A stretch of 33,316 nt of DNA from Candidatus Scatousia excrementigallinarum (GTDB taxonomy: Bacteria > Cyanobacteriota > Vampirovibrionia > Gastranaerophilales > Gastranaerophilaceae). The translations under genes were made by a program, and so were the position numbers. This document shows positions 3,643 through 29,959 of the stretch, one piece after another. Under the pieces are notes generated by a model that made no database searches, had not been told where the DNA came from, and was given only the letters and a program-made list of their open reading frames with translations. How positions within the stretch are numbered: the first letter of the stretch is position 1; the number at the start of each line of letters is the position of its first letter. Location of the stretch: NCBI GenBank assembly GCA_018711035.1, contig DVIU01000217.1:1-33316 (forward strand). Reading direction: 5' to 3'.

Positions 3643-4692
3643 ATGCAAGTACAAAAAATAAGCCGATTTTTAAATAATAAAATGCTGCTAAAAACGTTAG
3701 AGAAAGTATCCGAGCACGGAAGCTCCTTTGCTGCCGGCACTTCTCTTGTAATGGCTTTAGGCGTACGGCCTCTTGCTATTCTGTCAACTCCGGATGTTGA
3801 AAAAGAAAATAAGCAATATGCTTGTGCAAATTCTATCTGTTCAGGACTTATTAAATTTGGGATGATAGAAGCTGTTGCTCTTCCTGTTGAAAATGCTGTT
3901 AAGAAAATTGATAAAAATCCTGATAAATACCTGAAACCATTAACTGTTAAGCTGCTAAAGGGGGGAGCATCCGGTTTATCTGAATCAAAAAGCTATAAAT
4001 TGGCTGCTCAAATAACTAAACTCGGAACAGGTTTAATAACTGCAATTCCAAAGTCAGTTCTGACTATTGCTTTAATTCCTGTTATTATGGACAAACTTTT
4101 TAATATCAAAAAGAATAATGAAACAGTAACTGTAGAAAATAACCCTGATAATATACAAATCATAAAAAGTAAAAAAATTCCTTTTCAAGGCAAAGGAACA
4201 GAACAGCTTGCGAAAGGTATCGGCAAAATATTTGACAACAAAACTGTACGTCAATTTGTGATAAAACATGCCGATGAAGAAAAAAATATTGCAAAACATA
4301 TGACTGCTGCTACTGATATTCTTCTGACCGCATCTGCCGCTTATCAGACAAATAACAGCCCAAATATAAAAGAAAACCGGAAAAAAGCACTTATTTATAA
4401 TAATGTATTATCAACGGCAATTACTCTTGGTTTTGGTTACGGTATAGATAAAGCTATTAAAAATAAAACAGGTAATTTTATTAAGCGGTTCGCTGAAGTC
4501 AACAGGCATGACCCTAAACTTCATAAATATATTGAAGGCATAAATATAATCAGACCTGCGTTAATATTCGCAGGTATCTATTATGGTTTACTACCGGTGT
4601 TTTCCACATATATTGCAGAGAAAATCGATAAATTTATTGAAAGAAATTCATTAAAGACTAAAGATTCTGAACTTCATCAGTCTGTTTCTTAA
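3643..4692 (+). CDS. Hypothetical protein, possibly membrane-associated
   Basis: 349 aa, no family recognised. The N-terminus MQVQKISRFLNN has the short lineage-style start also seen in the AAA+ protein of this window (MRITQIQTF). Several moderately hydrophobic helices are visible (about residues 28-48, 125-148, 255-270 and 300-325), separated by lysine-rich helical segments such as the stretch around 150-200. Gly/Ala-containing helices (GTGLITAIPKSVLTIALIP, ALIFAGIYYGLLPVF) suggest membrane insertion or hydrophobic packing. No signal peptide and no catalytic motif. The start has AGGTAAAAGAA upstream. It is divergent from pnuC. Its last 35 bases are also the last codons of tpsB on the other strand. 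Real gene likely, from length, start signal and codon pattern; function not assignable. Confidence 0.7.
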   Translation: MQVQKISRFLNNKMLLKTLEKVSEHGSSFAAGTSLVMALGVRPLAILSTPDVEKENKQYACANSICSGLIKFGMIEAVALPVENAVKKIDKNPDKYLKPLTVKLLKGGASGLSESKSYKLAAQITKLGTGLITAIPKSVLTIALIPVIMDKLFNIKKNNETVTVENNPDNIQIIKSKKIPFQGKGTEQLAKGIGKIFDNKTVRQFVIKHADEEKNIAKHMTAATDILLTASAAYQTNNSPNIKENRKKALIYNNVLSTAITLGFGYGIDKAIKNKTGNFIKRFAEVNRHDPKLHKYIEGINIIRPALIFAGIYYGLLPVFSTYIAEKIDKFIERNSLKTKDSELHQSVS

Positions 4693-6588: not shown

Positions 6589-6617
6589 TTGAAACATAAC
6601 TTTAGCAATTATAGAAA
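6589..6617 (+). promoter_or_regulatory. Candidate promoter of tpsA
   Basis: TTGAAA (6589-6594) and TAGAAA (6612-6617) are 17 bases apart, giving a leader of about 65 bases before the ATG at 6688. An alternative -10, TATATT, is at 6577-6582 but lacks a -35. The 176-base gap between tpsB and tpsA must hold promoters for both directions. Confidence 0.35.
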
Positions 6618-6687
6618 ATTTTTCATATTTAATCTCATCATGAAGCAAATAACCAGTATAGTGATGATTTTAAGAAAAGGGATATAT

Positions 6688-9600
6688 ATGAAAAAGGTTA
6701 GAACGTTTAAAACTATTGTTACAAAAGCTTTTGCGTTATTTTTATGTTTGAGCTTTATATTTCAGCAATCACTGATAGTACCGGTACTTGCAAGTGAGAT
6801 TACGCCGGATAATTCAGCCGGCATGGGAGCTAATATTAATAATCCTGTAGACGGTGTTTATGATATTACTGCAGGGTTTACTCATGGCTCAACTGATTTT
6901 GGTCATTTTGATCAATTTAATCTTACTCCCGGAGATGTGGCTAACCTTATAAATTCTGTTGGTATAAATAAATTTGTTGCTTTAGTAAATAATCAGGTTA
7001 ATATTAACGGTCTTTTAAATATCCTTAACAGCGGCGGTGTTTTTAATAACGGGCATGCCGTATTTGTATCCCCTAGCGGTATCGTAATAGGTGCCTCAGG
7101 AGTCCTTAACGTCGGAGCGCTTTCATTAATTACTCCTTCGCAGGGTACTTATAATAATTTTGTTGGCGGTTTGAAAGCAAATCCTACAGAAGATTTAACC
7201 GCATTGAAAACTGATTCGCAGGGAAATATAACCATAAACGGTAAAATTATTGCCCGCGGTGATGTCGAAATGTACGGTAAAGACATTACAATCGCAGGCG
7301 ATGGTAATTCGTCCGCAGGTATTCTTGCCGGTTTAGGAGATAAATTAAAAAATCAGGTTTTGACAGCAGATAATGCTGAACAAATTTTTAACGGACTTGT
7401 CTCTAATGCGATTCAAGACCCGACAGGTTTTGGCTTTGAAAACGGAAAGGTTGTTATAAAAGCTCAGGCTGTAAATAATCATGCTCCTGATTCGAATGTT
7501 ACATCTGCCGGTGTAAATATTAAAAATGCGGCTATTGTCGGTAAAGATATTGATATTTCCGTAACAGCTTCCGATACTATAGAAACAACGGCGGACGAGG
7601 CAGGTTCTGTTAAAGATATTGTATTAAATATTGATAAATATTTTGACATGGAAAATCCTTATGAAGATTTTACAGGTGCAAGAGCCGAAGCTGTGATTAA
7701 TATTGAAAATTCAAAACTTGCAGCAGTAGACAATATTAATATCTCAACAAATGCTTCCGCAACTACTAACATTTCTTCAGCTGATAAACCTTCCAGCGCG
7801 CTGGTATTAGCATTAGGAAATTCCACAAAATCAACAATTGATATTAAAAATACAAAAATTAATGCAGGCGGTGACCTCAATGCCAATGCTGTATCGGAAA
7901 ATATTTCTGAAATTGAAATCTCGAACGAAGCAGAAGATTCCGATGATATGAAGTCAAAAGCTTTAATTGCGGTTAACCATACCTCAAAAGCCGATACTCA
8001 TGTTGTTATTGATAATCAATCAACAATAAAAGCTGATAATCTTAATGTGAAAGCTGTAAATGCTACCAATAATAATATTTCTGTTACAAACACAGTTAAA
8101 TATGAAGGAGATTCAAAAGACGGAAAGAAAGCCGGCAACAATGCCGCTAGTTCTGCCGGAGTTTCCTTGCTTTTAAAAAATGACAGAATTACAACAAATG
8201 CTGAAGTCAATGCGAATACCGAACTTAAAGGCGAGGCTAAAGTTACTGCACAAAATTTACACGTAAGCAATACTGCAATTTCTTCCTCGGGGGTTGTTGC
8301 AGAAGAAGATGACAAGGAGTCCGAAAAATCTGATACTGATACCTCTGGTATTTTTTCTAAAATTCAGGATATTTTGGCTTCATTCTCGCAGGCCGGAGTT
8401 GATTCCTCTAATCCGACTTCAGGGTCTTCCGCTTCAGGGTCGGGAACTCCTGCTGCGGAAATGAGCGGTGTTGTTAATATTAATAAAAGTGAAGTTACAA
8501 CAACAGCCTCAATAGGAAGCACTGATTTTAATGCAGGCGGGGATGTATCTGTTGAAGCTAATACTATTGATTACACAACTAATATTGCTTCTGCCGCTTC
8601 CTCTGACGGTGCAAAGTTTGCACCTGGTGCAGCTGTGATTGTAAATTCACAAAATAATACTACAAAGGCAGTGATTAAAGATAATTCTAAAGTTAGTGCA
8701 AAATCTGTTAAGCTGAATGCGACTACAGAATTGCCTTTGACTCTTGCTGAGCTGAAGTTGAATATTTTAGACAAAAGTTTTTCATTAAACCCGCAGTCTA
8801 ACGGAAACTGGGATTTCTCAGGTTTTGAAGGCAGCGGCGATGACTACGCCGGTATAGATTTAAGCGACCTTGATTTTGGCTTTATCGGTGAAGACGGAAG
8901 TCCTGTAGAATTTTCAACACAGTTTTTTAATAATCAGGCTACTTCTGCTGCAAACGGTGTTACTACTGGAATTGCCGGTGCCGTCGTTTACAATTCCATC
9001 GTAAACGACACAACTGCGTCGATTGGAAACAACGCAGTTGTTACTGCTTCTCAAGGTGATATAATTGCCAATGCCGTAAATTCTGTTGTCAATTATAACG
9101 CAGCAGGCGATGTCTCCGCATTATTTAAACAGGATGATAAAGCAAACGGAGGTAAGTTCGGACTTGGCGGGTCTGTTCTTATTAATAATTATACAAATAA
9201 CGCAACGGCTTCAATTGGGAAAAATGCAACCGTAACGGCCGGGAATGGAAAAGTTGAATTAACTTCCGCGAACGAGGCTTCTTATATGAATCTTGTTTCT
9301 TCCGGTGCCCAAGCCGGTAAATTTGCTCTTGCCGGGTCGGTTCTTGTGAATAATATTAATGGAAATACAGAATCAAAAATCGGGGAACAAGCAAGAGTAA
9401 AAGCTGCCGTAGTGAACGTAAAAGCAGGAGAAGGGCAAATTAAAACTGCTGCAAATACAGACGGTTTGAAAGATGATTCTCTTGACTTGAATCAGGAACG
9501 TTCGGCAAAAGACAAAACGTCCGTAATAAATATCGGCGGAGCAATCTCACAGCAAAAAGCCCGGAAAGGACAATCTTCTGGTAAAGCTTCTTCCGGAGGT

Positions 9601-12600
9601 AATAACAGTTCAGGTGCTGCAATAGGTGCTACTGTTATGGTGAATAATATTAACAAAAATGTAAAAGCTTCTATTGGTAACAATGCAGAAATAACCGCAA
9701 CAAAAAGTGTTGATATAAAGGCAAATACAGAAACCGGAACATTAAATATAGGTTTGGCAGGTGCTTTTACCGGCGGTGTTAAAACCAAAAAGCCAGCCTC
9801 AAAAGATTCATCATCACAAGGGCAGGATTTCGGAAATTTTGGCAACTGGCAGGATAGTGTCGGTAATATTACAGATAGAGTAGAAAATGCGGTTTCCTCT
9901 ACTGATAATACCGTTAATAATGCTACAGGAAGTTCTGTAACAGACCATTTGCAGGGTAGTGATGTTCAGGGCGCTCTGGGTTCTACAAATAATACCCCTA
10001 ATGATGTTACACCGGGTACTTCCGGTACAACTTCACAAGGGCAAAATCTTGCAGGTCATAGTGGAAACCTTATGCAAAATGAAGATGGCTCCAATGCTGT
10101 TGCAAACGGCTCAACTGCAACAAACAGCTTTTCGACAGCGGCAGCCGGAGTAGTCAATGTAAATTCCAATGAAACTAATGTAGAAGCATCTATTGGAAAT
10201 GCAACCATAAATGTCGGAGATTCACTAAATGTCGAGGCTTCACAGGATACTCAAGGCCTGGATATTGCAACAGGTGTATCAAAAGCAGGAAATTTAGGCG
10301 CAGGTGCTGCTATAAATGTTAATTCAAAAGCAGGTTCAACAAATGCCTTAATGAATGGTACGAATGTTATATTTACCGGTTCCGGTGACAGACTCAGTGT
10401 AATTGCAGATGAAACGAATAACAATATTGCCGTGGCACTTGGAGTAGGTGCAGCAAAAGGCGGTAATAATACCCAGATTGCAATCGGGGGTTCTTTTAAT
10501 ACGAATTTAATTGAAAATTCAGTCAAATCTTCAATGAATGATGTTGACGTTGAAGGCAAAGGTAATACAGAAATAGAAGTTATTGCAAATAACTATTCTA
10601 AATCCTATAAAGGTGCCGGCGGTGTAGCTTATGCCGGCGGTAAAAGCAACAGTTCAGGCGGAGGCGCTACCGGAGGTGGCGTTTCAGGTAGCGGAACTTC
10701 AGATGGTGGCAGCACCGGTGTAGGGGCTGGTGTAGCCGGTAATATTGATGTTTATAATAAAACTACAAAGGCTGAAATAACAAGTTCAGAAGGGAATAAA
10801 TCAAAACTTACAAATGTCGGCAATGTCTCTGTTGAAGCTAACAATAAAGGCGGTGCTACAGACGATGTTATCGGTTTTTCTATGGGTGGTGCCATATCCG
10901 GTGCAAATACTTCTGCGAATTTTGCAGGTGCAATTGGTGTTGGTGTATTTGGAAATGAAGTTAGTGCTTTGATTAAAAACGCTGATATTTCTTCAATCGG
11001 AGATATTAATGTAAATGCGGATTCAAACCTTAATCTTGCAAATATTACAGGGAGTGCATCAATTTCCAAAGCTTCAAAAGGTGCCGGAGTTGGCATCGGT
11101 ACTGTTGTAAATGTTATTAATAACATTGTTATTGCCGGAATTGAAGATACAATAATTTCAAAATCAAAATCAGTTAATGTCAATGCAAAAGAAACAGAAG
11201 TTTTACAATTCCTTGCGGCTAATCTTGGGTTTAATGCCGGTGTAGACGCAAAACATGTCGGGGTTTACCCAAATGCGATAGTAAGCGTTCTGGATAGTGA
11301 TATAAAATCTTATATCACCGGTGGTTCTGTGACTTCTGATGGTAATGTCGCCAGTAAAGCCGCTTATGATTCTGATATTAAAGGTATAACGGCAGTTCTT
11401 GCAAGCGATGGATTTGTTGTTGGTGGTAATATTGTAAGCAATGTTCTGACAAATTCAACAACTTCAAATGTAAATTCGACTGTTTCGGCAGGTGGTCAGT
11501 TGAGTTCTGTTGCGGAAGCTGACGAAAATATAGATGTTATAGCCGCAGGTGCTGCTATTTCATCCGGCAAACTTGCGGTGGCAGCAAATATCGGTGTAAA
11601 TGTTCTTGATAATACAACTGACGCTAAACTTGGCGGAAATGTTACGAAATCCGGAAGTGTAAATGTAAATGCTTCAGATACAACCAATTTAAAAACCAGA
11701 GGAGGTACTCTTTCGGGTTCGGCTGGAACAGGTGTGGGAGGTTCAATTATTGTTGATGTCCTCGTAAAAGATGTTTCAGCTTCGATTTCGGATGGAGCAA
11801 ATATTAATTCTGACGGAAATGTGAATGTAAATGCTTCTGCAAAAAATTATTCCGGCGGGGACTCTAAACTTTCGATAAATTTAGCGGATATTTTAAATAA
11901 TATAGATAATATTGATTTAGAAAATTATGAAGAATTAAAAGACTGGCAGATGACCTATGACCTTGTAGGAGGAGGCAGTACAGCTCTCAGCGGTTCATTG
12001 ATTACGAAAGTTGTCAATAACAACGTAACTGCTTCTGTTGGTAATGCTGTTGTCAACTCGGGGTCTTTAAATGTTGCAGCTTCTGAAGATGTAGTCATTA
12101 ATGCAATTGTGGGTAATATTTCCGGCGGTGCAGGTAAAACTATCGGTGGTTCTGCTTTTGTTAATGTTGTAACAGGAACTACAGAGGCTAAAATCGCCAA
12201 AGGAGCTAATGTTACAACTACATCAAAAGGCGTAAGTGTTATAGCTGATAATAAGCAGTCAATCCGAACAATAATGGTTATGGGCGGTGGCGGACAGATT
12301 GCCGTTAACGGTTCTGCAAATGTAAATGTATTTAATAACAATACGCTTGCGACTGTTGAAGACGGTGTAACAATCGATTCAAAAGGTGCCGTAAAGGTTG
12401 ATGCTGCTGAAAAAACTGAAGTAGAAAGCATTAACATAGCTGCTTCAGCCGGTAGCAATATTGCAGCAGGAGGAGTTATTTATGTAAACACTTTCTCAAG
12501 CGATGTTAAGGCAACAGTCGGTAAAAAAGAAGGTGAACAAACTTCTATTACAGCCGGCGGAGATATTGATGTTAATGCTGATTCAAAATCTGCATTCGGA

Positions 12601-15600
12601 GCTACAATGATGATGGCAGGTTTAGGCGGTACTGCCGGGGTTTCCGGAGCTGCGGTTGTAAATGTTGTTGATGCAGTGGTTTCTTCTTATGTCGTAAATT
12701 CGTTGTTAAGTAATGCCGGTCACGATATAAATGTTCTTGCTAACAGCAATTTTAATAACTGGAAATATTCAAACAACAGCTTGTATGACACTATGAGCAA
12801 AACAGAATCATACCTGACAGGCAAAATTGATGAAATTGATATGGATAATTTCACTCCGATTGTAAATATCTTATCCTTATCAGGCGCAGGAACGGCTGCT
12901 GTAGGTGCTGTTGCGGTTGCAAACACAGTTACAAATAATGTTTCTGCTGTTGTAGAAAATTCTAATATTACAAATACAAACAGTTTGAATGTCTCGGCAA
13001 CAACAGCTTCACAAACATACGACGCGCTGGCAAGTCTTGCAGGTTCCGGTGTTGCGTCTGTAACAGGCAGTGCTCTTGTAAACTTAATTGAAGGAGAGAC
13101 AAAAGCTGCTGTTATAGGAACTACAGTTGAACGCGGTTCCGTTTATGTAAATGCAGCAGACAATGCCTATATGGATGGTATTCTGCTGGGAGTTGCAGGA
13201 GCAGGAACCGCTGCTGTGACAGCTTCTGTGAATACAAACCTTACAGAAAATAAGGTTAATGCCGTAATTGATGAATCAACTATACGTGATGCTGATAAAG
13301 TTAGCGTTAAGTCTGAATCAAACAAAAAAGCCTCAACTCTGGCAAGTGGTATTGCTGTTTCAGGTGGAGCCGGTGTAAACGGTCTTGTTATTGTTAATCA
13401 GAACGAAACCGAAAATAATGCAAAGATAACTAATTCAACAATAAAAACTAAAAATGATGTTAAAGTTGAAGGCAAGAGTTCTTTTAAAACATTTGACGCC
13501 TTAGCTTCAGCAGGAGTGTCGACTGTAGCCGTAAACGCCGCTGCAATTTCAAACATTGCGGCAAATAAAAATACAGCTTCAATTGAAAATACTAATATTT
13601 CAGAATCAGGTTCGGTAACTGTTAATGCTGAAAGTACAAATGACATAAAAGGTAATAATATTTCGCTCGGTGTAGGTGGAGGTGCGATTGGGCTTTCTGC
13701 TCTTGTAAACCTAGTTGAGTCTGAAACAAAAGCCTTTATAAATAATTCAGACCCTTCTAAAATAATCAAGACCGCTGCTCTTAATGTAAAGGCAAATGAT
13801 TCAATTAACCTTGATATGAATGTCGGGGTATTAACAGCCGGAGGCGTAAGTGCTGCCGGTGCCGCAAATGTTAATATTATAAATAATGCTGTACTGGCAG
13901 AAATAAAATCTCAATCCGAAATATCAGCCTCATCGGTTAATGTTAATGCAGTATCTGATATGGATATAAATATATTAACTGCATCTGCCGCAGTCGGAGC
14001 ATTCGGCGGTGCTGCATCTGTTGCAGTTACCTCAATCGGCGGAAAATTTGACGATAGTAACACAGATGCATATCTTAAAACAGATGATGGCGGAAATCTT
14101 GTAGATAAAGCAATTTCACAGACAGGTGTTAAAGTTTCCGAAAATTCAAAAGGCGGAACTGTAGCCAATGTTAATGCAAATATAAAATCAGACGGCGATG
14201 TTAATGTAAAAGCCTCTAATAATTTAAATTTAGATAAAACAAATGCACAGGCTGTTGCCGGATTTGGCTCTCTCGCCGGAAATGTGCTTGTTACAAATAT
14301 GAAATATAATACGTCAGCCTCTATGCAGGGTGATGTTACCGGGAAAAATATTTCAGTAAACGCAAATAATACTGTTAAGGCAAATACTACGGCTTATTCA
14401 GCCTCATTATCAGGTGTAAATTTTGGAGGTAACGTAGCTTACTTTACTAATGATGCAACAACCTCTGCTGCAATTAATGGTGGTACAATTAAAGGTACAA
14501 ATGTGGCTGTTAATGCAACATCAAAGGATACTACATCTGTTAATTCAACAGGCGCCAGCGTTTCAGGAGCCAATATCAACGCAACAGTTGCATTGACTGA
14601 ATCAAACAATAAAGTTAGTGCTGCTATTAATAACAAAGTAAATATTAATGCGGATAAACTGGATGTTATTGCAGATAATACCAGTTCGCTTACATCTGAA
14701 CTTGCGTCGTTGAGTGCTTCTGTAATAAGCGGTCAGGTTGTAATTAATAAAGCTGAATCTAGTGCTATTACAAGTGCTATCGTTGACGCAACCGGCACAA
14801 TAAATGCCGCTGATATGAATGTTATAACCTCAACCGGCGGTATAAGTGCAAAATCTATTGTAAACATGGGTGGTGTGTCTTTAGCCGGTGTTGATGTTAC
14901 ATCTCAGGGTGCTATAGTCAAAGCCCAATTTGATTCTGCAATTAAAGGTGACGCAGAGATAGTAAATAAAAATAGTGATAAAACCGGCAGTACCAATGTT
15001 TATGCCGGTGTAAAAACCGGTACGACAGAAGCCGGTGAAATTAAAGCAGAAGCGTCTGCCAAACAGGTAAAGGCAGGATTAGCAGGTGTTGGTGTCACAA
15101 GCCTTAATGCTAACGTAAGTGCTGCAACTGATGTAACAATTAATCCTGCTAATTTGAAAACCGATAACTTAAATGTATTTTCAAAATTAAACAGGACTGC
15201 TAATGTTGGGTCAGAATCCGGAAGCCTTAGTGCTATAGAATTGAGTACTCTTGATATGGACGCCTATGCCGGTGGTTCAAACACAATTACTATCGCTGGT
15301 AATACGGAAGTTGAAAAGGCTATTAACGTTCAACTCGGCGATAAAGCAAACGTTAATACTTCAATTATGAACCAGAGCATAAGCCTTGTTGGAGCCAATG
15401 TGAATACTGCTGATGCTGTAATTGATACGGATACGACAATTAATATTGGTGGAAATCTTTCTATGGATAATATGACCGTAAATTCTAATGTGGAAAGAAA
15501 CACGGTTAATTCCTCAGAATCGTCTGGTGGTGGGTTTGTAGATGTTAATTCTTATAAAATGACAACAAATTCCGGCGGGGATTCAACAATAAATATTACG

Positions 15601-18600
15601 GCAAATATTCAGGGCGATTCTAAAAACGCAGTGGATGTAACTTCAACTGCCAAAAATACTGCCAATACACGGATTTCAAGTAAATCGGCCGGTCTTGCAG
15701 CTATTGCAAAAAATGAAACAAAAAATACAATTACTGCAACAAATAAAATTAATGTAAACGGTGCAAACATAAAAACTAACGGTGGCGATATTTCAATTAA
15801 GGCAGACAGTGAAAACCGTGTATTAATGCGTCAGAATGAACAAGGTGCCGGTGCAATTGTTATTCGCGGAGGTAAAATCAACAATTCTATTAATTCTATT
15901 GCCGATGTTGAATTTAATAATGCAAATATAGAAGCTGAAAATGTTAATGTTTCTGCTTCTGCAAAATTGGGTACAATCGGCGATAAAGAAATATCATACA
16001 GAGTTGGTGTATCAGGTTTTTCCGCTACACATGATGCTGATATCTCAAACGATATTACTCAAAATTCAAATATCAAGTTTAATAATTCTACAGTCAAGGC
16101 TAAACAAAATATGAATGTAAAGGCCAGAACTGAAAGTACATTAAAACAAAAAATCTATACCGAAGGTGACGGTTTTGTAACGAAAAACGTTGCAACCTCC
16201 AATCTTAAGGTGACTAACAATAATAATATTACAATTAGCAAAGGGTCAACTTTAGAAGCGAATGACTTGAATCTTGCTATGGATTCAAAAAATATTTTAC
16301 ATTCGGAATCCGTCACAAATGCTGATCACTTTGGAGGTTTAGACCCTGAAGCTCATGCAAATCTGGAATTAACTATTAACAATACAATTAATAACAGCGG
16401 TGAACTCAAAGGTAAAGACACTGTTCAGATTAATTTTATGAAGGATGATTCTGTAAATGAATTGACACAGCTTGCCGAATTAACTGTTGATGCGGCTGTC
16501 GCAACCGGCGATGCCGATGGTTATCTGAAATATAATGTTAATAATAACCTCAATGTAAATGAAGGTGCAAGCATATCATCAGGAAAAGATGTTGCTATAC
16601 GTTACAGCGACGGTGATTATAAACTTAATTCAAGAGTTCATTCTAAAAAGACAAGTTATCTGCTTTTTGGTATTCCTATTACTGTGGAGGATGATTATTC
16701 TAATGTTTCAAGAGGCGGAACAAGTAAACTTACCCTTAACGGTGAAATTACAGCAGGAAGCGAGTCTAAATATAACTTTGAAATTGATAGAGACGGTAAT
16801 GTCGTTGAACACAGCGGCTTTGAAGATAAATATGAAAAAGTTGACAGTGATAAAGTCATTTCTGCTGAACAACAGGAAAAAGATAATGAGAAAGTAATTT
16901 CAGAAGTTAAAGATGAAATTGAAAATATTAATAACGAAATTGCAGAAATGAAAAAGAATCAGGAAGCAAACTCAAAAGAAATTGCAGAATATGAGCAAAA
17001 GCTTGAGCAATACCAGACTCTTCTTGACAGTTTAAATGCAAATAAAGATAACACAATAACAATGGATAACATTGAAAATCAAATCAAAGATAAAGTAAAT
17101 GAAAAAATAGAAGATGCAGATAACTTCTGGTCAAATTATAATAAATATGCAAATGAGCATAAAGGTGAAGGCGGTGACTTATTTGATAAATATGTAGATA
17201 CTCTTTCGATTGAAAATAAAGCAGAAGTAAAATCTGCATATCATTCAGTGGCTGACAATATTACAACAGATGCGGAATCAGGATTAGCTATATTTAAACA
17301 GGGTGATTTAATAAGCATAATCTCTGATAAAGATTCCGTGCAGGAATCAATTGACAGACTTGAGCAGGTGGTAAATAATTATACCCAGCAATTAAATAAC
17401 CTTAAAATAAAAGGTGAAGGGCTAATATCTTCAATACAAAGCAATTCAGAAAGTCTTTCTGCTATGAATGACCAGCTTAAATACCTTGAAGATTTAAGAG
17501 GTTCTTTTACTGATACAAGTGTCGGTAAACCTTATTTCAAATTTGATAATTTAGATATTCCTAATGCAAAAATTGAAATTAGCGGCATTGATATGAAGGT
17601 TGTAAAAGATTCCAACGGCAATGAATCATTAGCTCCGAATATCGAAGGTAATGGCAATTTCCATATTTTTGCTCCTACTGTAGAGGTAACGAATTATTCG
17701 GATTATGATTTGGTATTCGGGAATATAAACTATAATACTTCAGGTAATTCAGGGCTCATCATAAATGATGTAACCTATAATCACCTTGCAAATAAAGATA
17801 CTCCTGTTGCAGATAATGTTCATCTGCTTTCAGGCGACACAACCGGTGATTTTAATCCAGGCATATCGATTAAAAATCTTTATGACCATAATAATCCGGT
17901 AGCCGGAGGGTCGATTGTTTCAAATATAATAATGAACGGACTTATAAACTTTAATAACGGATATTTGTCAATCTGGAATGAAAGCGGTGATATAACCATA
18001 AAAAGTTTAATCAATACCGCATCAAAAGATATTATTGCCACACAGGGTAATGCCGTTTACACCGGCGGAGGCAGCTTTGAAATTAAAGAAAATGACAGAT
18101 TTGTTGCAGGTAAAGATGTAACCGTAAATGCATCAAATATTAAAGTTGACGGCCTTGTGCAGGCAGGTTACGGAGATAGAAATATTGTAATAACAGAAGA
18201 TATGATTAAACCTGAAAACCTTGTTGTTGACCCGAATACCGGCGAGAAGAACATGGTTGATACCGCATATCTTGACAATTCGAACGGTAATATAAAAGTC
18301 CTGTATGTTGACGGCAAGCTTCTTGTGTTCAATACACAGCAGGAAGGCGGCAACGTTAACTTTACCGGTTCTGTGTCAGGCAGCGGCACTGTTAAATATA
18401 CAGACGGTTTTGCAAATGTAAATATACAGAACAAAACAGATAAAGAACTTGTAGTTAACAATCTTGCAAATGACCGTATGAACGGACAATTTACTAACAG
18501 AGGTTCTCTGAAATCTGATAATATTATTAATCAGGGTCATTCCGAAGCCCTTACAAATATTGACTCAAACGGTAAAATCAGTATTTTAGGTTTCTTAAAA

Positions 18601-21450
18601 CACGGACATAATAGACAAAATACTGACGGTGCCGGTCAGCTTACAATTAAATCAGATAACGGAATCGCAGTAAATGAAAAAAGAGGTTCTAATGGGGAAT
18701 TGCTTGCTACAGTTGATTCTGTTGGTAATACAGTAATCGAAAACGGTAATAATTCCGGCATAACAATTGATGGTAAAGTCCTCAATGACGGTGCAATTAA
18801 CGTTAAAAATAACGGTTCGGAAGGCGTTTCCGTTAATAGTATAATTGAAAACTCAAACGGTACCTTAAAAGTAGATAATACGCAAGGAAATGTAACAATT
18901 TCAGAAAAAGGAACTTTACAAAATTCTAACGGAAATATCGAAATTAAAAATACCGGAGAGGGCAAGGTTTCAATTATCGGTAAAATTAAAAACCTGTTAA
19001 AAGGCGATACAAAAATCGATTCGCAGGGTGAACAGGGAATTGAAATCTCTGGTACTGTAACCAATACTGACGGTATTGTTGAAATTTCAAATAAAAAAGC
19101 CGGAGTAACAATTTCCGGACTAGTAGAAAATAAAAAAGGTAAAACTACCGTTAAAAATGAAGGTTCTGACGGTATAAAAGTTACCTCTGCCGGTAAAATC
19201 CAAAATAATAACGGACAACTTGAGCTTGAAAATACAGGTAAGGGCGGTATGAAGCTTGAAGGTAAAGTTAAAACAAGTACCGGTGATATTAAACTTACCA
19301 ATAAAGATTCTGATATTGTAATCGGGCATAAAGATACAGATTTCAATATAGAATCCGGCAGTAATGTTGTTATTAACCAGACAAACGGAGATGTTCTAAA
19401 TGCCGGTGTTGATAAAACTTTAATCTCAGCAGCTTCTGACTTGATTATGACTGTTAACGGCGGCAGTGTCGGTAAGCGTGCACAAACAGACAAGCCTGCT
19501 TACAGTATAGATGCAAGTACAAGAGACTATACAAAATCTCTTAATGTTAATATTAAAGGAAAAGTTAATATTGAAGCAAACGCAAAAGACGGTGTAAAAG
19601 ATTCCGGCTTGGTAAATCTTACAGCTAAAAAATCAGATTTGAATGTTGATAAGATTAAAACCGACGGGGACATTGTCCTTACTGCTGCGGATTGGAAATA
19701 TCAGGATGAAGAAAATCCTGATCCGAATAATGACCCTTATTACAGAGGCTACTCAATTAGAAATGCTTCGACAGATAAATCACAGGCAAATCTTGAAGGT
19801 AAAAATATCTCGGTAATCTCAAGTAACGAAATCGGCGAAAAAGGCAACGCTTTGACATATAATCAAAGAACAGACCTCGACGCGAATGCAAAAGTCGGAT
19901 TTGAGGCTGAAAATGATATTTACCTTGACGGTTCGGCAAAAGGTGATAAGACAAATATCGCTTATCTGGTATCAAAACGCGGTTCAATTGACTTTGCGCT
20001 CGGGTCGGATGCTGAAATTCATGAAATAACTTCAAATAATCATTTACATATTCAAAGCAGAGCCAAAAATCTTACAATATATAACCTTGGCAAACTGACC
20101 AGCCTTGGCGAAGATTTTAATGACCTTCTCTATCCGCACGATAAAATCAAGCTTGGTGGAAATTCTATGGACGTAGTTCCACAGACTGTTGCAATAGAAG
20201 TTCTTGATGCAAACGGTGGAGCCGAGGCAAATTCAACTCTGAAAATCTATAATGCCTATGTCCGTGGTGCAAATAACGGTAAGGGAAGTTATGAACAATA
20301 CCTTGACCAGACATTCCAAACTGCCGATGTATCGTTGATGGCTGATAATATTTACGCTCACGCTTACGATGCGGCAAAATCGGATGTGTACACAAATAAC
20401 AGACCTGGTGGATTTGACCCTACTTTAGATACTGTATATACAGACCTGAATGGTAACGAAGCGCATGCTACAGGCTTTAATACAGTAGGTGAAGGTGCGA
20501 AGTTGTCTTTTGACCTTCAGGGCGTATCTAGAGAAATGGTTAAAAGCGCAACAGGAGATGATTCCACACGAAGCTATAACGAAACTGATAAATTCCAAAC
20601 AATTGAATTTTTCAATAATAAATACCAGATTCCGGACGGTAAGGCTTACAAAGCTCATGAAGTTACATTGTCTGTAAATTCAAGTGACGAATCTGAAGAA
20701 ACCGGCAATAACCGCGGATTAAATATAAACAAAATCTATGCTGATAATGCTTATGTTGATACAAAAGACTTAAATCTTTCTGTAAGAGACGGCCTTATCA
20801 CAAACTATGCGGAATTCAGAAACGGTAACAGATTTGGAGAAGGTAATTATCCTGGAGATTACAGATGGCTCACTGTTGTTGATAATGATTTCAGAAGACT
20901 CGTTGATTCAACACTTCAACTTTATACCGAAAAAACCGGTTCTTTTGGACTTGATATGGGCAACCTTGTTATTCTGAGATCTAAAGCTCCTGCTGTTAAT
21001 TATAATCCTTATGAAGTTGCAAACTTATTTAGAAATGAAAACAGTTTCTACAGATTGACTTATAAGGATGACAAAATTCAGTACAACACAACAACTCCTG
21101 ACTTTAAAGATATTGATAAGGCAACTTATAAGGCCACAAAACGTGTGTCTATGCGCTTCCCTACAAAGGATCAAAATCTTCAATCAAATGTCGCGGTATA
21201 TGATATTTCTAAAACCGGTGCTTTGATAGATAACCCTAATAACCTCAAAATAGGGGATAAAAAACATGTAAAACTTTTATATGAAGATATGGATATTGAT
21301 GTGGATGTAGAAGTTGTACGTATTACAGACAATGGTTTTGCAGGTGTTAAATTCATAAACATGAATAAATCCACCGCAAATAAAATTCTTTATCTGAATT
21401 TATCAAGAGCAAATTCAATGAAGGAAAATTACACAAGTCAGTTACCATAA
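6688..21450 (+). CDS. TpsA: giant LktA-like filamentous adhesin with C-terminal PilZ domain
   Basis: 4,920 aa from the ATG at 6688, chosen because AAAAGGG lies 7 bases upstream and MKKVRTFKT opens a typical signal peptide (1-35, cleavage after VLA); an in-frame TTG at 6589 lacks these. Domain order: TPS secretion domain (about 36-290) with VFVSPSGIVIG (SPSGI at 128-132, in place of the NPNGI of FHA); thirty or more degenerate beta-strand repeats (about 590-2760); further beta-rich passenger; an alpha-helical coiled-coil insert (about 3390-3610); eight or nine beta-helix units of 22-25 residues (about 4016-4210); a beta-rich region; and a PilZ domain (about 4812-4910). By eye the only Cys is in the signal peptide, as expected of an exported protein. 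TpsB is encoded divergently. Substrate or host receptor unknown. No toxin or immunity gene follows, so it is an adhesin rather than a CdiA. Confidence 0.92.
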   Translation: MKKVRTFKTIVTKAFALFLCLSFIFQQSLIVPVLASEITPDNSAGMGANINNPVDGVYDITAGFTHGSTDFGHFDQFNLTPGDVANLINSVGINKFVALVNNQVNINGLLNILNSGGVFNNGHAVFVSPSGIVIGASGVLNVGALSLITPSQGTYNNFVGGLKANPTEDLTALKTDSQGNITINGKIIARGDVEMYGKDITIAGDGNSSAGILAGLGDKLKNQVLTADNAEQIFNGLVSNAIQDPTGFGFENGKVVIKAQAVNNHAPDSNVTSAGVNIKNAAIVGKDIDISVTASDTIETTADEAGSVKDIVLNIDKYFDMENPYEDFTGARAEAVINIENSKLAAVDNINISTNASATTNISSADKPSSALVLALGNSTKSTIDIKNTKINAGGDLNANAVSENISEIEISNEAEDSDDMKSKALIAVNHTSKADTHVVIDNQSTIKADNLNVKAVNATNNNISVTNTVKYEGDSKDGKKAGNNAASSAGVSLLLKNDRITTNAEVNANTELKGEAKVTAQNLHVSNTAISSSGVVAEEDDKESEKSDTDTSGIFSKIQDILASFSQAGVDSSNPTSGSSASGSGTPAAEMSGVVNINKSEVTTTASIGSTDFNAGGDVSVEANTIDYTTNIASAASSDGAKFAPGAAVIVNSQNNTTKAVIKDNSKVSAKSVKLNATTELPLTLAELKLNILDKSFSLNPQSNGNWDFSGFEGSGDDYAGIDLSDLDFGFIGEDGSPVEFSTQFFNNQATSAANGVTTGIAGAVVYNSIVNDTTASIGNNAVVTASQGDIIANAVNSVVNYNAAGDVSALFKQDDKANGGKFGLGGSVLINNYTNNATASIGKNATVTAGNGKVELTSANEASYMNLVSSGAQAGKFALAGSVLVNNINGNTESKIGEQARVKAAVVNVKAGEGQIKTAANTDGLKDDSLDLNQERSAKDKTSVINIGGAISQQKARKGQSSGKASSGGNNSSGAAIGATVMVNNINKNVKASIGNNAEITATKSVDIKANTETGTLNIGLAGAFTGGVKTKKPASKDSSSQGQDFGNFGNWQDSVGNITDRVENAVSSTDNTVNNATGSSVTDHLQGSDVQGALGSTNNTPNDVTPGTSGTTSQGQNLAGHSGNLMQNEDGSNAVANGSTATNSFSTAAAGVVNVNSNETNVEASIGNATINVGDSLNVEASQDTQGLDIATGVSKAGNLGAGAAINVNSKAGSTNALMNGTNVIFTGSGDRLSVIADETNNNIAVALGVGAAKGGNNTQIAIGGSFNTNLIENSVKSSMNDVDVEGKGNTEIEVIANNYSKSYKGAGGVAYAGGKSNSSGGGATGGGVSGSGTSDGGSTGVGAGVAGNIDVYNKTTKAEITSSEGNKSKLTNVGNVSVEANNKGGATDDVIGFSMGGAISGANTSANFAGAIGVGVFGNEVSALIKNADISSIGDINVNADSNLNLANITGSASISKASKGAGVGIGTVVNVINNIVIAGIEDTIISKSKSVNVNAKETEVLQFLAANLGFNAGVDAKHVGVYPNAIVSVLDSDIKSYITGGSVTSDGNVASKAAYDSDIKGITAVLASDGFVVGGNIVSNVLTNSTTSNVNSTVSAGGQLSSVAEADENIDVIAAGAAISSGKLAVAANIGVNVLDNTTDAKLGGNVTKSGSVNVNASDTTNLKTRGGTLSGSAGTGVGGSIIVDVLVKDVSASISDGANINSDGNVNVNASAKNYSGGDSKLSINLADILNNIDNIDLENYEELKDWQMTYDLVGGGSTALSGSLITKVVNNNVTASVGNAVVNSGSLNVAASEDVVINAIVGNISGGAGKTIGGSAFVNVVTGTTEAKIAKGANVTTTSKGVSVIADNKQSIRTIMVMGGGGQIAVNGSANVNVFNNNTLATVEDGVTIDSKGAVKVDAAEKTEVESINIAASAGSNIAAGGVIYVNTFSSDVKATVGKKEGEQTSITAGGDIDVNADSKSAFGATMMMAGLGGTAGVSGAAVVNVVDAVVSSYVVNSLLSNAGHDINVLANSNFNNWKYSNNSLYDTMSKTESYLTGKIDEIDMDNFTPIVNILSLSGAGTAAVGAVAVANTVTNNVSAVVENSNITNTNSLNVSATTASQTYDALASLAGSGVASVTGSALVNLIEGETKAAVIGTTVERGSVYVNAADNAYMDGILLGVAGAGTAAVTASVNTNLTENKVNAVIDESTIRDADKVSVKSESNKKASTLASGIAVSGGAGVNGLVIVNQNETENNAKITNSTIKTKNDVKVEGKSSFKTFDALASAGVSTVAVNAAAISNIAANKNTASIENTNISESGSVTVNAESTNDIKGNNISLGVGGGAIGLSALVNLVESETKAFINNSDPSKIIKTAALNVKANDSINLDMNVGVLTAGGVSAAGAANVNIINNAVLAEIKSQSEISASSVNVNAVSDMDINILTASAAVGAFGGAASVAVTSIGGKFDDSNTDAYLKTDDGGNLVDKAISQTGVKVSENSKGGTVANVNANIKSDGDVNVKASNNLNLDKTNAQAVAGFGSLAGNVLVTNMKYNTSASMQGDVTGKNISVNANNTVKANTTAYSASLSGVNFGGNVAYFTNDATTSAAINGGTIKGTNVAVNATSKDTTSVNSTGASVSGANINATVALTESNNKVSAAINNKVNINADKLDVIADNTSSLTSELASLSASVISGQVVINKAESSAITSAIVDATGTINAADMNVITSTGGISAKSIVNMGGVSLAGVDVTSQGAIVKAQFDSAIKGDAEIVNKNSDKTGSTNVYAGVKTGTTEAGEIKAEASAKQVKAGLAGVGVTSLNANVSAATDVTINPANLKTDNLNVFSKLNRTANVGSESGSLSAIELSTLDMDAYAGGSNTITIAGNTEVEKAINVQLGDKANVNTSIMNQSISLVGANVNTADAVIDTDTTINIGGNLSMDNMTVNSNVERNTVNSSESSGGGFVDVNSYKMTTNSGGDSTINITANIQGDSKNAVDVTSTAKNTANTRISSKSAGLAAIAKNETKNTITATNKINVNGANIKTNGGDISIKADSENRVLMRQNEQGAGAIVIRGGKINNSINSIADVEFNNANIEAENVNVSASAKLGTIGDKEISYRVGVSGFSATHDADISNDITQNSNIKFNNSTVKAKQNMNVKARTESTLKQKIYTEGDGFVTKNVATSNLKVTNNNNITISKGSTLEANDLNLAMDSKNILHSESVTNADHFGGLDPEAHANLELTINNTINNSGELKGKDTVQINFMKDDSVNELTQLAELTVDAAVATGDADGYLKYNVNNNLNVNEGASISSGKDVAIRYSDGDYKLNSRVHSKKTSYLLFGIPITVEDDYSNVSRGGTSKLTLNGEITAGSESKYNFEIDRDGNVVEHSGFEDKYEKVDSDKVISAEQQEKDNEKVISEVKDEIENINNEIAEMKKNQEANSKEIAEYEQKLEQYQTLLDSLNANKDNTITMDNIENQIKDKVNEKIEDADNFWSNYNKYANEHKGEGGDLFDKYVDTLSIENKAEVKSAYHSVADNITTDAESGLAIFKQGDLISIISDKDSVQESIDRLEQVVNNYTQQLNNLKIKGEGLISSIQSNSESLSAMNDQLKYLEDLRGSFTDTSVGKPYFKFDNLDIPNAKIEISGIDMKVVKDSNGNESLAPNIEGNGNFHIFAPTVEVTNYSDYDLVFGNINYNTSGNSGLIINDVTYNHLANKDTPVADNVHLLSGDTTGDFNPGISIKNLYDHNNPVAGGSIVSNIIMNGLINFNNGYLSIWNESGDITIKSLINTASKDIIATQGNAVYTGGGSFEIKENDRFVAGKDVTVNASNIKVDGLVQAGYGDRNIVITEDMIKPENLVVDPNTGEKNMVDTAYLDNSNGNIKVLYVDGKLLVFNTQQEGGNVNFTGSVSGSGTVKYTDGFANVNIQNKTDKELVVNNLANDRMNGQFTNRGSLKSDNIINQGHSEALTNIDSNGKISILGFLKHGHNRQNTDGAGQLTIKSDNGIAVNEKRGSNGELLATVDSVGNTVIENGNNSGITIDGKVLNDGAINVKNNGSEGVSVNSIIENSNGTLKVDNTQGNVTISEKGTLQNSNGNIEIKNTGEGKVSIIGKIKNLLKGDTKIDSQGEQGIEISGTVTNTDGIVEISNKKAGVTISGLVENKKGKTTVKNEGSDGIKVTSAGKIQNNNGQLELENTGKGGMKLEGKVKTSTGDIKLTNKDSDIVIGHKDTDFNIESGSNVVINQTNGDVLNAGVDKTLISAASDLIMTVNGGSVGKRAQTDKPAYSIDASTRDYTKSLNVNIKGKVNIEANAKDGVKDSGLVNLTAKKSDLNVDKIKTDGDIVLTAADWKYQDEENPDPNNDPYYRGYSIRNASTDKSQANLEGKNISVISSNEIGEKGNALTYNQRTDLDANAKVGFEAENDIYLDGSAKGDKTNIAYLVSKRGSIDFALGSDAEIHEITSNNHLHIQSRAKNLTIYNLGKLTSLGEDFNDLLYPHDKIKLGGNSMDVVPQTVAIEVLDANGGAEANSTLKIYNAYVRGANNGKGSYEQYLDQTFQTADVSLMADNIYAHAYDAAKSDVYTNNRPGGFDPTLDTVYTDLNGNEAHATGFNTVGEGAKLSFDLQGVSREMVKSATGDDSTRSYNETDKFQTIEFFNNKYQIPDGKAYKAHEVTLSVNSSDESEETGNNRGLNINKIYADNAYVDTKDLNLSVRDGLITNYAEFRNGNRFGEGNYPGDYRWLTVVDNDFRRLVDSTLQLYTEKTGSFGLDMGNLVILRSKAPAVNYNPYEVANLFRNENSFYRLTYKDDKIQYNTTTPDFKDIDKATYKATKRVSMRFPTKDQNLQSNVAVYDISKTGALIDNPNNLKIGDKKHVKLLYEDMDIDVDVEVVRITDNGFAGVKFINMNKSTANKILYLNLSRANSMKENYTSQLP
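6793..7557 (+). other. TPS (two-partner secretion) domain of TpsA
   Basis: Directly after signal-peptide cleavage. It contains N-I-N-G-L-L-N-I-L-N-S-G-G, then HAVFVSPSGIVIGASGVLNVG, the family hallmark of a beta-helix that docks on the POTRA domains of TpsB and starts outward transport. Boundaries are approximate. Confidence 0.85.
8455..14960 (+). repeat. Degenerate protein repeats in the TpsA passenger (about 30 or more)
   Basis: Each unit of about 55-75 residues follows the pattern G-G-s-x-x-V-N-x-x-x-N-x-T-x-A-x-I-G-x-x-A-x-V-x-A-x-x-x-V-x-V-x-A. Clear examples lie at about 8455, 9160, 9330, 9610, 11560, 12140, 12300 and 13060. At DNA level the copies have diverged strongly, so this is an old protein repeat, not a recent tandem duplication. 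Two Ser/Gly-rich linkers interrupt it (about 8335-8460 and 10640-10735). This architecture is typical of LktA-type filamentous adhesins. Confidence 0.8.
16860..17510 (+). other. Coiled-coil insert in the TpsA beta-passenger
   Basis: Around residues 3390-3610 the Gly/Asn/Ser/Val-rich beta pattern stops and gives way to heptad-like helices rich in Glu, Lys, Gln and Leu (for example EIAEYEQKLEQYQTLLDSL and DRLEQVVNNYTQQLNNLKI). Beta-rich sequence resumes right after LKYLEDLRGSF. Confidence 0.75.
18733..19315 (+). repeat. Eight to nine short beta-helix repeats (22-25 aa each) in TpsA
   Basis: Units follow I/V-x-N-x-G-x-x-G-I-x-I-x-G-x-V-x-N-x-x-G-x-I-x, one per likely beta-helix turn; examples are ITIDGKVLNDGAINVKN and IEISGTVTNTDGIVEISN. 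They are shorter and more regular than the upstream repeats and end just before the non-repetitive C-terminal region. Confidence 0.75.
21118..21420 (+). other. PilZ (c-di-GMP-binding) domain at the C-terminus of TpsA
   Basis: RVSMR (R4819 and R4823, the RxxxR motif) is followed 16 residues later by DISKTG (D4839, S4841, G4844, the DxSxxG motif). Then comes the expected barrel pattern L-x-I-G-D...V-K-L-L-Y-E...V-D-V-E-V-V-R-I...G-F-A-G-V-K-F and a C-terminal helix. Both ligand-binding motifs are intact. No Shine-Dalgarno with an in-frame start precedes it, so it is a covalent part of the adhesin. Confidence 0.85.
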
Positions 21451-28094: not shown

Positions 28095-28108
28095 GTCCTC
28101 TTTTTTTA
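28078..28108. terminator. Bidirectional terminator between the CDGSH and AAA+ genes
   Basis: Stem AGAGGAC/GTCCTCT (28082-28088/28095-28101), extended by A/T pairs, with T-runs in both directions. The CDGSH stop is in the loop and the AAA+ stop lies in the T-run. Confidence 0.9.
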
Positions 28109-29638
28109 TTTGTTAAAACCTACAGCTTTTCTGTCAGGTTTTTTCCCTTCCTTAAATTTTTCAATAGCATTTTCAAAATCTGTATCAAGGATTCTGAATT
28201 TGTCCAAATCCGCATCGGTTAAAGTATTTGATTCAAGCTTTGCAGTTATTCCGGCTCTTTCATATCCCTTTAAGTAAGCATCAGTTACAAGCCTTCTTAC
28301 ATCAGCACCGGTACATTTCAAATCAAACATTTTTCTTGCAATTTCATCTTTTGATAATGTTTCACTTACGGGTTTTCCGTTTGTATAATTATCAAGAAGT
28401 TTTCTTGTTGCGTTGAGGTCCGGATGTTTAAAGTCAAGAATTTTCCCGAATCTTCCTGACCTTATCAGTGCATTATCAAGACGGTCAAAAAAGTTAGTGG
28501 CTGCCATTACAAATACATCGTATCTGTTTGCATCAACATCTGTCATACAGGTTAAAATCTGGTCAACAACTTTGTCGCCGTATTCATCATGTCCGCCTCT
28601 GGCTCTGCCTACTGCATCAAACTCGTCTATAAATAAAAGGTATGGCTGATTATCTATAGCTTCGTCAAATAAATCTCTCCAGGCAGCTTCGGACTCGCCG
28701 ACGTATTTCTGTTCCAGTTCAAGCCCGTTTAGAAACTTATAATTCATTCCGGCTTCGTTTATTAAAGCCTGTGCCGTATGTGTTTTCCCTAAACCGGGGG
28801 CGCCTTTTAGAATGTATCCGTGATGAAGATCAAGATTTTCGTATGCTCTTGGCATTCTTAACGGATAAAGAATATTCTCTTTTAATTCCTTAATAACTTC
28901 ATCCTGCCCTATTACGTCTTTAAACATTGTTTTCTTTACAGGTTTCTTTTCGCTGTAAAGAGTAGTTAATACACGGCGATTCTGGTTTTTGATAACTTCT
29001 TCGGCTTCTTTTTCATAGTTGAAAGCCTTGGCATAAGCAAATCTGTGCATACTCAAATCAACTTTGGGTTTGTTTTTTATTGTCACAATGCTGTCGTCAA
29101 TGCGTACTGTATCACCAGGGATTACATAATTGCTTCCTTGAGCCGGGATTTCATATTCATGTCCGTCTGTTGTTATAAAAATAGGTTTTTTATTAGCATT
29201 AATTATTTCCGTGTCGCCAAGAGTATCCTTTCTGAATGCTAATATCCCTTTGAAATTATCATCTTCAATAAAAAATGCTCGTTTTATCAGGCTTTTTTTC
29301 ATTTTGTCTGCGGATTCAATAAGTGATTTTTGAGTTTCCTTAAGTGTTTTTCCTACAACTACGAGATCTCCGTATTTCATAAATGTAAACGCATCAGCCA
29401 GTCTTTCTTCAAGAGGGAGCTGTTTTGCAAGAATATTTGTTGCTTTTTCTATTGCGCCAGTAAATACAGGATGCTTTTTATTTAATAAAATCCTATTGTA
29501 ATTCATATCGCAAAGAGGGCTTGAATTCATTTTTGAATTTAGCACCGGCGGAGAATTTTTTGTTCCTGATGCTGGATTTGTATATACGGTTTGTTTGCTG
29601 CGCTGCGGGTTAAATGTTTGGATTTGTGTAATTCTCAT
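28106..29638 (-). CDS. AAA+ ATPase, Cdc48/Vps4-like, with N-terminal substrate domain
   Basis: 510 aa from the ATG at 29638, chosen because GAAAGGAG lies 10 bases upstream and MRITQIQTF is a lineage-style start; a longer reading frame from 29770 has no ribosome site and would cross a strong hairpin. Residues 1-60 are low-complexity and polar. About 85-190 hold a domain with a beta-barrel-like strand pattern (ending in YVIPGDTVRIDDSIVTI), resembling OB or Cdc48-N type barrels. The AAA+ module (about 237-480) has Walker A GAPGLGKT (279-286), pore loop KYVGESE (311-317), Walker B LLFIDEFD (334-341), sensor N382 and Arg fingers R393/R396. It probably forms a hexamer that unfolds or remodels proteins. 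No protease domain and no transmembrane segment, so it is not FtsH. Target unknown. Confidence 0.88.
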   Translation of the reverse strand: MRITQIQTFNPQRSKQTVYTNPASGTKNSPPVLNSKMNSSPLCDMNYNRILLNKKHPVFTGAIEKATNILAKQLPLEERLADAFTFMKYGDLVVVGKTLKETQKSLIESADKMKKSLIKRAFFIEDDNFKGILAFRKDTLGDTEIINANKKPIFITTDGHEYEIPAQGSNYVIPGDTVRIDDSIVTIKNKPKVDLSMHRFAYAKAFNYEKEAEEVIKNQNRRVLTTLYSEKKPVKKTMFKDVIGQDEVIKELKENILYPLRMPRAYENLDLHHGYILKGAPGLGKTHTAQALINEAGMNYKFLNGLELEQKYVGESEAAWRDLFDEAIDNQPYLLFIDEFDAVGRARGGHDEYGDKVVDQILTCMTDVDANRYDVFVMAATNFFDRLDNALIRSGRFGKILDFKHPDLNATRKLLDNYTNGKPVSETLSKDEIARKMFDLKCTGADVRRLVTDAYLKGYERAGITAKLESNTLTDADLDKFRILDTDFENAIEKFKEGKKPDRKAVGFNK

Positions 29639-29660
29639 CTGCGTTGTTCTCCTTTCCGGT

Positions 29661-29701
29661 AAAAAAATAAGCCTGCAAATATACCCCTTGATTTGCAGGC
29701 T
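29661..29701 (-). terminator. Leader terminator (attenuator) upstream of the AAA+ gene
   Basis: Perfect 11-bp stem AGCCTGCAAAT/ATTTGCAGGCT (29701-29691/29680-29670 in transcript order), loop CAAGGGGTAT, followed on the minus strand by TTATTTTTTT. It ends six bases before the Shine-Dalgarno of the AAA+ gene, so it would stop transcription unless a competing fold forms. Confidence 0.8.
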
Positions 29702-29734
29702 GTAAGTATGTTTATTAGGTTTAGTAAAATTAAG

Positions 29735-29762
29735 TAATATCCGGTAAAAACAGTCTGCAATA
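29735..29762 (-). repeat. Duplicate of the terminator 3' arm (candidate antiterminator)
   Basis: The minus strand reads TTGCAGACTG then TTTTTACCGGA, a near copy of the terminator 3' arm plus T-run and ACCGGA found at 29678-29655. TTGCAGACTG (29760-29751) pairs with CAGCCTGCAA (29702-29693) in 9 of 10 positions and so can take the 5' arm away from the terminator. Confidence 0.65.
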
Positions 29763-29772
29763 TGAAACATTA

Positions 29773-29797
29773 TGCTTAAAGACGGAGGACTTTAGCA
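29773..29797 (-). promoter_or_regulatory. First hairpin of the AAA+ leader, loop UCCUCCGU
   Basis: TGCTAAAG (29797-29790) pairs with CTTTAAGCA (29781-29773) with one bulged A. The loop carries UCCUCC, complementary in part to the downstream ribosome site GGAG at about 29650. It forms right at the predicted 5' end of the transcript. Confidence 0.5.
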
Positions 29798-29802
29798 CCT
29801 TA

Positions 29803-29831
29803 ATTAGCATAACTCGTTTCATTAGTGTCAA
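29803..29831 (-). promoter_or_regulatory. Promoter of the AAA+ gene leader
   Basis: Perfect -35 TTGACA (29831-29826), 17-base spacer, -10 GCTAAT (29808-29803). Transcription would start near 29796, giving a leader of about 158 bases before the ATG at 29638. Confidence 0.6.
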
Positions 29832-29941
29832 TACTGTCATTTAATATCCCTTGTTTAATAAGTGTTGTTAATACAATACATTATGTTATGGAAATCGTCA
29901 ATGCCCCTTTTGACGTGCCAATAATCCCCTTGTAGGATAAT

Positions 29942-29959
29942 TTACTACCAATGTAGTAA
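29942..29959. repeat. Perfect 7-4-7 inverted repeat
   Basis: TTACTAC-CAAT-GTAGTAA, in the divergent intergenic region, with no T-run on either side, so more like an operator than a terminator. Confidence 0.6.

Follow-up and report, generated by a model that had tools for sequence, protein, structure and literature searches.

The window analyzed here, a stretch of DNA of 33,316 nucleotides from an uncultured gut bacterium of the Gastranaerophilales, relatives of cyanobacteria, carries on its minus strand a gene for an AAA+ ATPase of 510 amino acids (28106–29638). The leader features described below lie on the same strand and are given in window coordinates. The protein has a classic AAA domain with Walker A and B motifs (Pfam AAA, 1.6e-31) and a p97-like N-D1 domain order, and we describe it as a single-ring, p97/Cdc48 N-D1-like ATPase. 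Its closest sequences are VCP/p97-like, the matches to VCP-like ATPases among PDB sequences reaching 4.8e-71, and its close relatives match at 68–76%. A structure model (pLDDT 77.9, pTM 0.50) was matched by Foldseek to p97 N-D1 at 5.4e-23 over about 420 columns with an rmsd of 15 Å; because of this pTM and rmsd, the match to the p97-like N domain and the relative placing of the domains are uncertain in the model. Matches in a defence library (IetA) were to the AAA domain only. Elsewhere in the window, a repetitive ORF of 4953 amino acids (6589–21450, plus strand) adjoins an ORF of 617 amino acids (4658–6511, minus strand) that by eye looks like a two-partner secretion transporter.

Just before the ribosome-binding site of the AAA+ gene lies an intrinsic terminator, at the place given in the original prediction. 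It forms a perfect hairpin of 11 bp (29670–29701) from the 5′ arm AGCCTGCAAAT (region 3, 29691–29701; ACAGCCTGCAA as the arm in the pairing) and the 3′ arm ATTTGCAGGCT (region 4, 29670–29680), and is followed by the U-run TATTTTTTT (29661–29669), the Shine–Dalgarno sequence AAAGGAG (29649–29655) and the ATG at 29638. Upstream, beyond a spacer TTTTACTAAACCTAATAAACATACT (29705–29729) that is strongly conserved within the genus, the segment TTGCAGACTGT (region 2, the antiterminator, 29750–29760) is complementary to region 3 at 10 of 11 positions. This segment had been described as a near copy of the terminator 3′ arm together with its T-run and ACCGGA; the pairing with the 5′ arm held up, and the T-run and ACCGGA turned out to be unconserved even within the genus. 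Taken alone, the window shows a complementarity of regions 2 and 3 modestly beyond chance (P value 0.033 in one test and 0.06 in another), so that the claim of 2:3 pairing is carried by the comparative evidence. The leader as first delimited folded, as a whole, no better than shuffled sequences (z = −1.23).

For the comparison, we gathered AAA+ orthologues with searches of the window's own genus, its family and three other genera, and read the DNA upstream of them. The main set contained 43 loci, of which 14 without a terminator (9 from one subgroup of the genus g24 and 5 of another type) were dropped before the counts. The resulting 29 leaders represent four genera, with five species of the own genus, including the window, and three other genera. 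Locus L054, whose protein is identical to that of L007, was excluded, and the near-copies L003/L036, L007/L055 and L081/L082 were kept; for some counts, 26 or 18 representatives were used in place of the 29. Positions were set by hand for elements in L058 (including its terminator), L059 and L004, and for the start of the leader ORF in L007, L055, L008 and L053. In 18 further loci of the family, one of them (L030) with a frame resembling the leader ORF, we saw no such terminator by eye. The same layout recurred in the 29 leaders while the letters changed: a promoter, a Shine–Dalgarno sequence, a leader ORF (uORF), an antiterminator at the uORF stop, the terminator and the AAA+ start.

The 2:3 pairing exceeded that of shuffled sequences with a mean z of −3.7, and z was below −1.64 in 26 of the 29 leaders. 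Conserved alternative pairing in orthologous leaders had been named as a check on the original prediction, and its presence upholds the proposal that mutually exclusive terminator and antiterminator folds control the AAA+ gene. The antiterminator and terminator letters read CTGCAA/TTGCAG in the own genus, GTAAATTCAAATA/TATTTGAATTTAC in the genus g22, TTGTAAATTC/GAATTTACAA in most of g24 and CCTGCAAATCAC/GTGATTTGCAGG in L083, and the complementarity of the antiterminator often reaches into the terminator loop, where it is of no use to the terminator itself. These differences between genera and the extension into the loop argue against the earlier idea that the element arose by duplication; judged by its letters, the antiterminator appears to be a functional mimic of the terminator 3′ arm and not a visible copy. 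An ordinary intrinsic terminator with chance complementarity upstream would be in line with the P values of 0.03–0.06 for the window alone and with how common such terminators are by chance in the region, but the pairing recurs, despite changed letters, in 26 of the 29 orthologous leaders, which makes this extremely unlikely.

A scan located the promoter of the window, TTGACG-17-TATTGT (29873–29901), and a pattern search placed one correspondingly ahead of the uORF in all 29 leaders. Since this position-conserved promoter replaces the one originally proposed, the transcription start is predicted at about 29866 and the leader at about 228 nt instead of 158 bases. The TTGACA (29826–29831) earlier taken for a strong promoter is codons 4 and 5 of the uORF (TTG ACA) and reads TTGAAA or TTGATA in relatives. 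The uORF itself, absent from the earlier description, has 36 codons in the window (29730–29840, encoding MTVLTLMKRVMLIKVLKSSVFKHNVSYCRLFLPDIT followed by the stop) and is preceded by the Shine–Dalgarno sequence AAGGG (29848–29852). Across the 29 leaders, it spans 22–36 codons and always lies between promoter and terminator. A strict pattern found a Shine–Dalgarno-like motif before its start in 26 of them, at +17 to +45 from the predicted transcription start, and in the other three (L007, L055 and L008) the motif and start were placed by hand.

Ahead of the antiterminator, the uORF frame contains 2 in-frame stops in total and the other two frames 93 and 69; picking the open frame biases this count in favour of the uORF, though its start sits at a fixed place. 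The frame was open in 17 of 18 representatives, the 18th stopping 3 nt short, in comparison with about 3 of 18 expected from shuffling. Gaps in the uORF were whole codons within the compared pairs, and its start lies 69–96 nt from the antiterminator. The uORF is presumably translated, and its peptide is weakly constrained, with a pN/pS of 0.74 (11 pairs compared, 9 summed) and 49, 37 and 57 differences at the three codon positions. A search of 26 uORFs for a run of one regulatory amino acid found none, and no single residue stood out; the enriched residues are spread over Asn, Leu, Met, Val and His. The codons CGA, TCG and GTG are enriched relative to the AAA+ genes, and the enrichment of CGA and TCG possibly reflects a candidate hairpin inside the uORF.

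In 27 of the 29 leaders, a ribosome halted at the uORF stop would cover at least part of the antiterminator. The window is one of the two exceptions: its uORF extends 17 nt beyond the antiterminator, and region 2 would hardly be covered by a ribosome that has reached the stop. The uORF of L008 stops 17 nt short. The conservation of the uORF and the location of its stop codon over the antiterminator suggest that sensing is done by the ribosome and not through a ligand, and we therefore abandoned the earlier framing as a riboswitch to be probed with candidate ligands. The spacer is the one feature that would speak for a riboswitch binding a ligand or protein, with the uORF incidental: the segment TTTACTAAACCTAAT is nearly invariant in the five leaders of the genus although the uORF diverges, is present also in an orphan leader (L089, see below), and plain base pairing needs no such conservation. 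Against this, the spacer is unconserved in g24, g22 and g29, where the switch itself is kept, the uORF is open in all leaders and no Rfam class fits, and we hold a riboswitch of this kind to be highly improbable. A search with Rfam covariance models gave no leader match at the gathering score, the best E value of 3.9 being at chance level, and a known riboswitch, another Rfam class or a T-box was rejected for lack of a covariance-model match.

Region 2 has a second partner, also missing from the original prediction. Region 1, the anti-antiterminator, consists of the uORF start codon and the first codons (approximately 2–10; 29809–29844), and in the window forms a 1:2 duplex of −14.9 kcal/mol (P value 0.023). 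Compared with dinucleotide shuffles, the 1:2 pairing had a mean z of −1.88 and was below −1.64 in 18 of the 29 leaders, including the window, whereas a control pairing of the central uORF with region 2 had a mean z of +0.31 and was below the threshold in none of the 29. The 11 leaders above it include L007, L062, L069 and L081. Cognate partners averaged −13.0 kcal/mol versus −8.3 kcal/mol for noncognate ones. In an alignment of 16 rows from g24, 77.7% of the 1:2 cells and 93.8% of the 2:3 cells were paired, versus 17–45% and 14–54%, respectively, in slid versions, and the column pair 37/114 shows a compensatory change with A–U in 8 rows, G–C in 3 and U–A in 1. The covariation counts come from these 16 related rows, and some of the measures do not exceed column shuffles: 304 of 500 for changes on both sides of 1:2, 470 of 500 for further pair types and 74 of 500 for the paired cells of 2:3.

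Comparison of the sequences shows the elements of the switch, the competing helices, the uninterrupted uORF frame and the placement of its stop; the ON and OFF signs and the inducing stress we infer. The best explanation, which we consider probable, is a ribosome-read transcription attenuator in which early stalling on the uORF turns on the p97/Cdc48-like ATPase gene. In a transcript begun at the predicted start, region 2 would pair either with region 1 or with region 3; failing 2:3, the 3:4 hairpin would form and RNA polymerase would stop before the AAA+ gene. With the uORF untranslated, the 1:2 helix would let the terminator form and keep the gene off. A ribosome finishing at the uORF stop would cover or have passed region 2, the 1:2 helix might re-form, and the gene would again be off. 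A ribosome stalled early, at about codons 3–14, would mask region 1 and leave region 2 free, and the 2:3 helix would then block the terminator and turn the gene on. The inducer would be impaired elongation, through amino-acid shortage or ribosome-targeting inhibitors, and the signal is likely slow elongation of any kind within the first half of the uORF.

We modeled the folding of RNA ended before the terminator 3′ arm, with ribosome footprints of an assumed size blocked. For the window, the 2:3 pairing probability came to 0.00 without a ribosome and to 0.87, 0.72 and 0.19 for a ribosome placed at codon 7, codon 13 and the stop, respectively. Averaged across the 29 leaders, the four values were 0.66, 0.82, 0.77 and 0.05, the last of which is low in part because the modeling itself blocks the footprint. 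In the model, the early-stalled ON and the finished OFF states appear general across the 29 leaders, and the untranslated OFF state holds for the window, not for many g24 leaders, and may apply only to some. An alternative is a two-state switch without region 1: a ribosome that has reached the stop would occlude the antiterminator, and the gene would be turned on whenever translation of the uORF failed, lack of initiation included. It would suit the many g24 leaders modeled as readthrough when untranslated, the 27 of 29 leaders whose stop codon lies on the antiterminator and the nonsignificant region 1 pairing in 11 of 29. We regard such a switch as rather unlikely, given that 18 of 29 leaders, among them the window with its P value of 0.023, show clear region 1 pairing, that this pairing comes with compensatory change, and that the untranslated window shows no 2:3 pairing in the model.

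We looked for the leader ahead of other genes with two leader models. Model R1 gave 6 strong matches in 13 genomes of the genus, 5 preceding the AAA+ gene and 1 orphan, and model R2 gave matches in 21 of 65 g24 genomes, of which 18 are AAA+ leaders judged by their position and the other 3 (L114, L116 and L117) ordinary terminators. Strong matches thus adjoin the AAA+ gene in 23 of 24 cases (5 of 6 for R1 and 18 of 18 for R2), with one strong copy per genome, and the idea that the leader also serves other genes was rejected, the orphan being the only strong match elsewhere. Many of the same leaders had gone into building the models, and matches outside the training rows are those in G148, G209 and G169 and in the near-copies G210 and G191. 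Of the weak R1 matches L092 to L096, the two resolved are L092, an ordinary terminator, and L094, the reverse strand of the orphan.

The orphan (L089, G148:C1:58899-58997) is a complete leader with uORF and helices intact and no AAA+ gene downstream; its upstream neighbour is the same as in L033 and L034, and an ORF resembling a single-strand binding protein follows. In another case (L098, G209:C10:58339-58431), the leader is intact and the AAA+ gene broken, matched in two pieces with internal stops. A leader kept in full without the gene could mean that the promoter–terminator unit mainly yields a small RNA or microprotein, with the AAA+ gene as a mere bystander. We give this little credence: the single case, itself possibly a recent deletion or an assembly fault, stands against 23 strong matches adjoining the AAA+ gene (one gene broken), and an antiterminator conserved in its complementarity makes no sense for the plain terminator of a small RNA. 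In a tree of the AAA+ proteins, 20 rows with the attenuator fall inside one clade of 22 (support 93/90) with two g24 rows lacking it nested within, and the attenuator probably had one origin and a loss. On another branch, L016 and L038 have a different uORF and no terminator; by eye, a GTCCCGT in the uORF is complementary to an ACGGGAC shortly before the Shine–Dalgarno sequence of the gene, an arrangement that is perhaps a translational attenuator.

The type of switch is known. Amino-acid attenuators of the trp and his kind have regions 1–4, helices 1:2, 2:3 and 3:4 and a leader peptide; our leaders, 18 of 29 as regards the 1:2 helix, share the plan of three helices with a leader ORF. They differ in that no stretch of codons for one regulatory amino acid occurs in 26 uORFs and in that the target is an AAA+ gene, not a biosynthetic one. 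The Listeria hflXr/rli80 attenuator, as described in the cited passages, has a 14-codon ORF with an RLR motif for macrolides, and ribosome stalling turns the gene on (PMC6310831). The short ORF over a candidate anti-antiterminator, the antiterminator, the intrinsic terminator and the stalling-ON sign that we propose are alike, whereas 22–36 codons, the lack of a common short motif, the p97-like AAA+ target and the Gastranaerophilales host set our case apart from what is given there (PMC6310831). For Bacillus vmlR, the cited text reports a three-codon uORF inside stem-loop 1 and a hairpin sequestering the Shine–Dalgarno sequence, with a start-codon mutation abolishing induction (PMC9226507). 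Our leaders resemble it as presented there in the logic of anti-antiterminator, antiterminator and terminator and in a uORF in the anti-antiterminator stem, but here the uORF spans region 1 to region 2 and stops on the antiterminator (PMC9226507). The Escherichia coli toiL-topAI uORF is portrayed, in the portion cited, as a broad sensor of translation stress acting on the ribosome-binding site and Rho; the idea of a broad sensor and pairing along the uORF are shared, while our leaders use an intrinsic terminator (PMC12121999). In its cited part, a survey from 2010 lists leader-peptide systems as known only from Proteobacteria, Actinobacteria and, newly, Firmicutes (PMC2965389). Our literature search turned up no relevant report of an attenuator in this bacterial group or ahead of an AAA ATPase gene, and, as far as such searches show, the occurrence in this group and for this type of gene is undescribed.

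The proposed switch provides the p97-like ATPase family with a functional clue, translation stress. More speculatively, and with considerable doubt, the p97/Cdc48-like unfoldase of Gastranaerophilales might be a dedicated translation-stress factor, acting on stalled ribosomes or their products; a uORF sensing ribosome stalling in general, and not one amino acid or drug, would switch it on in the course of a single transcription cycle. If this is true, ribosome-read attenuation would gain a target of a new kind, and uncultured gut bacteria a new route to antibiotic tolerance.

Upstream of the promoter, the window contains a palindrome TTACTACATTGGTAGTAA (listed also as TACTACAnnTGTAGTA; 29942–29959), a candidate operator whose core matches TACTACANNTGTAGTA at 13 of 14 positions and which we take to resemble BlaI/MecI operators; the genome has one Penicillinase_R gene (G000:C79:3015-3317). 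With at least 11 of 14 matches, the palindrome was found upstream of 7 of 9 AAA+ homologues from the own genus, g22 and g29, in none of 10 attenuator leaders of g24, in 14 of 17 homologues without a uORF and in 3 of 5 that have a uORF and lack the terminator. By eye, a common box AAGTGTAAGATTAACATTTGTAAAGATTA is seen upstream of six AAA+ homologues without a uORF (L011, L012, L015, L021, L023 and L024).
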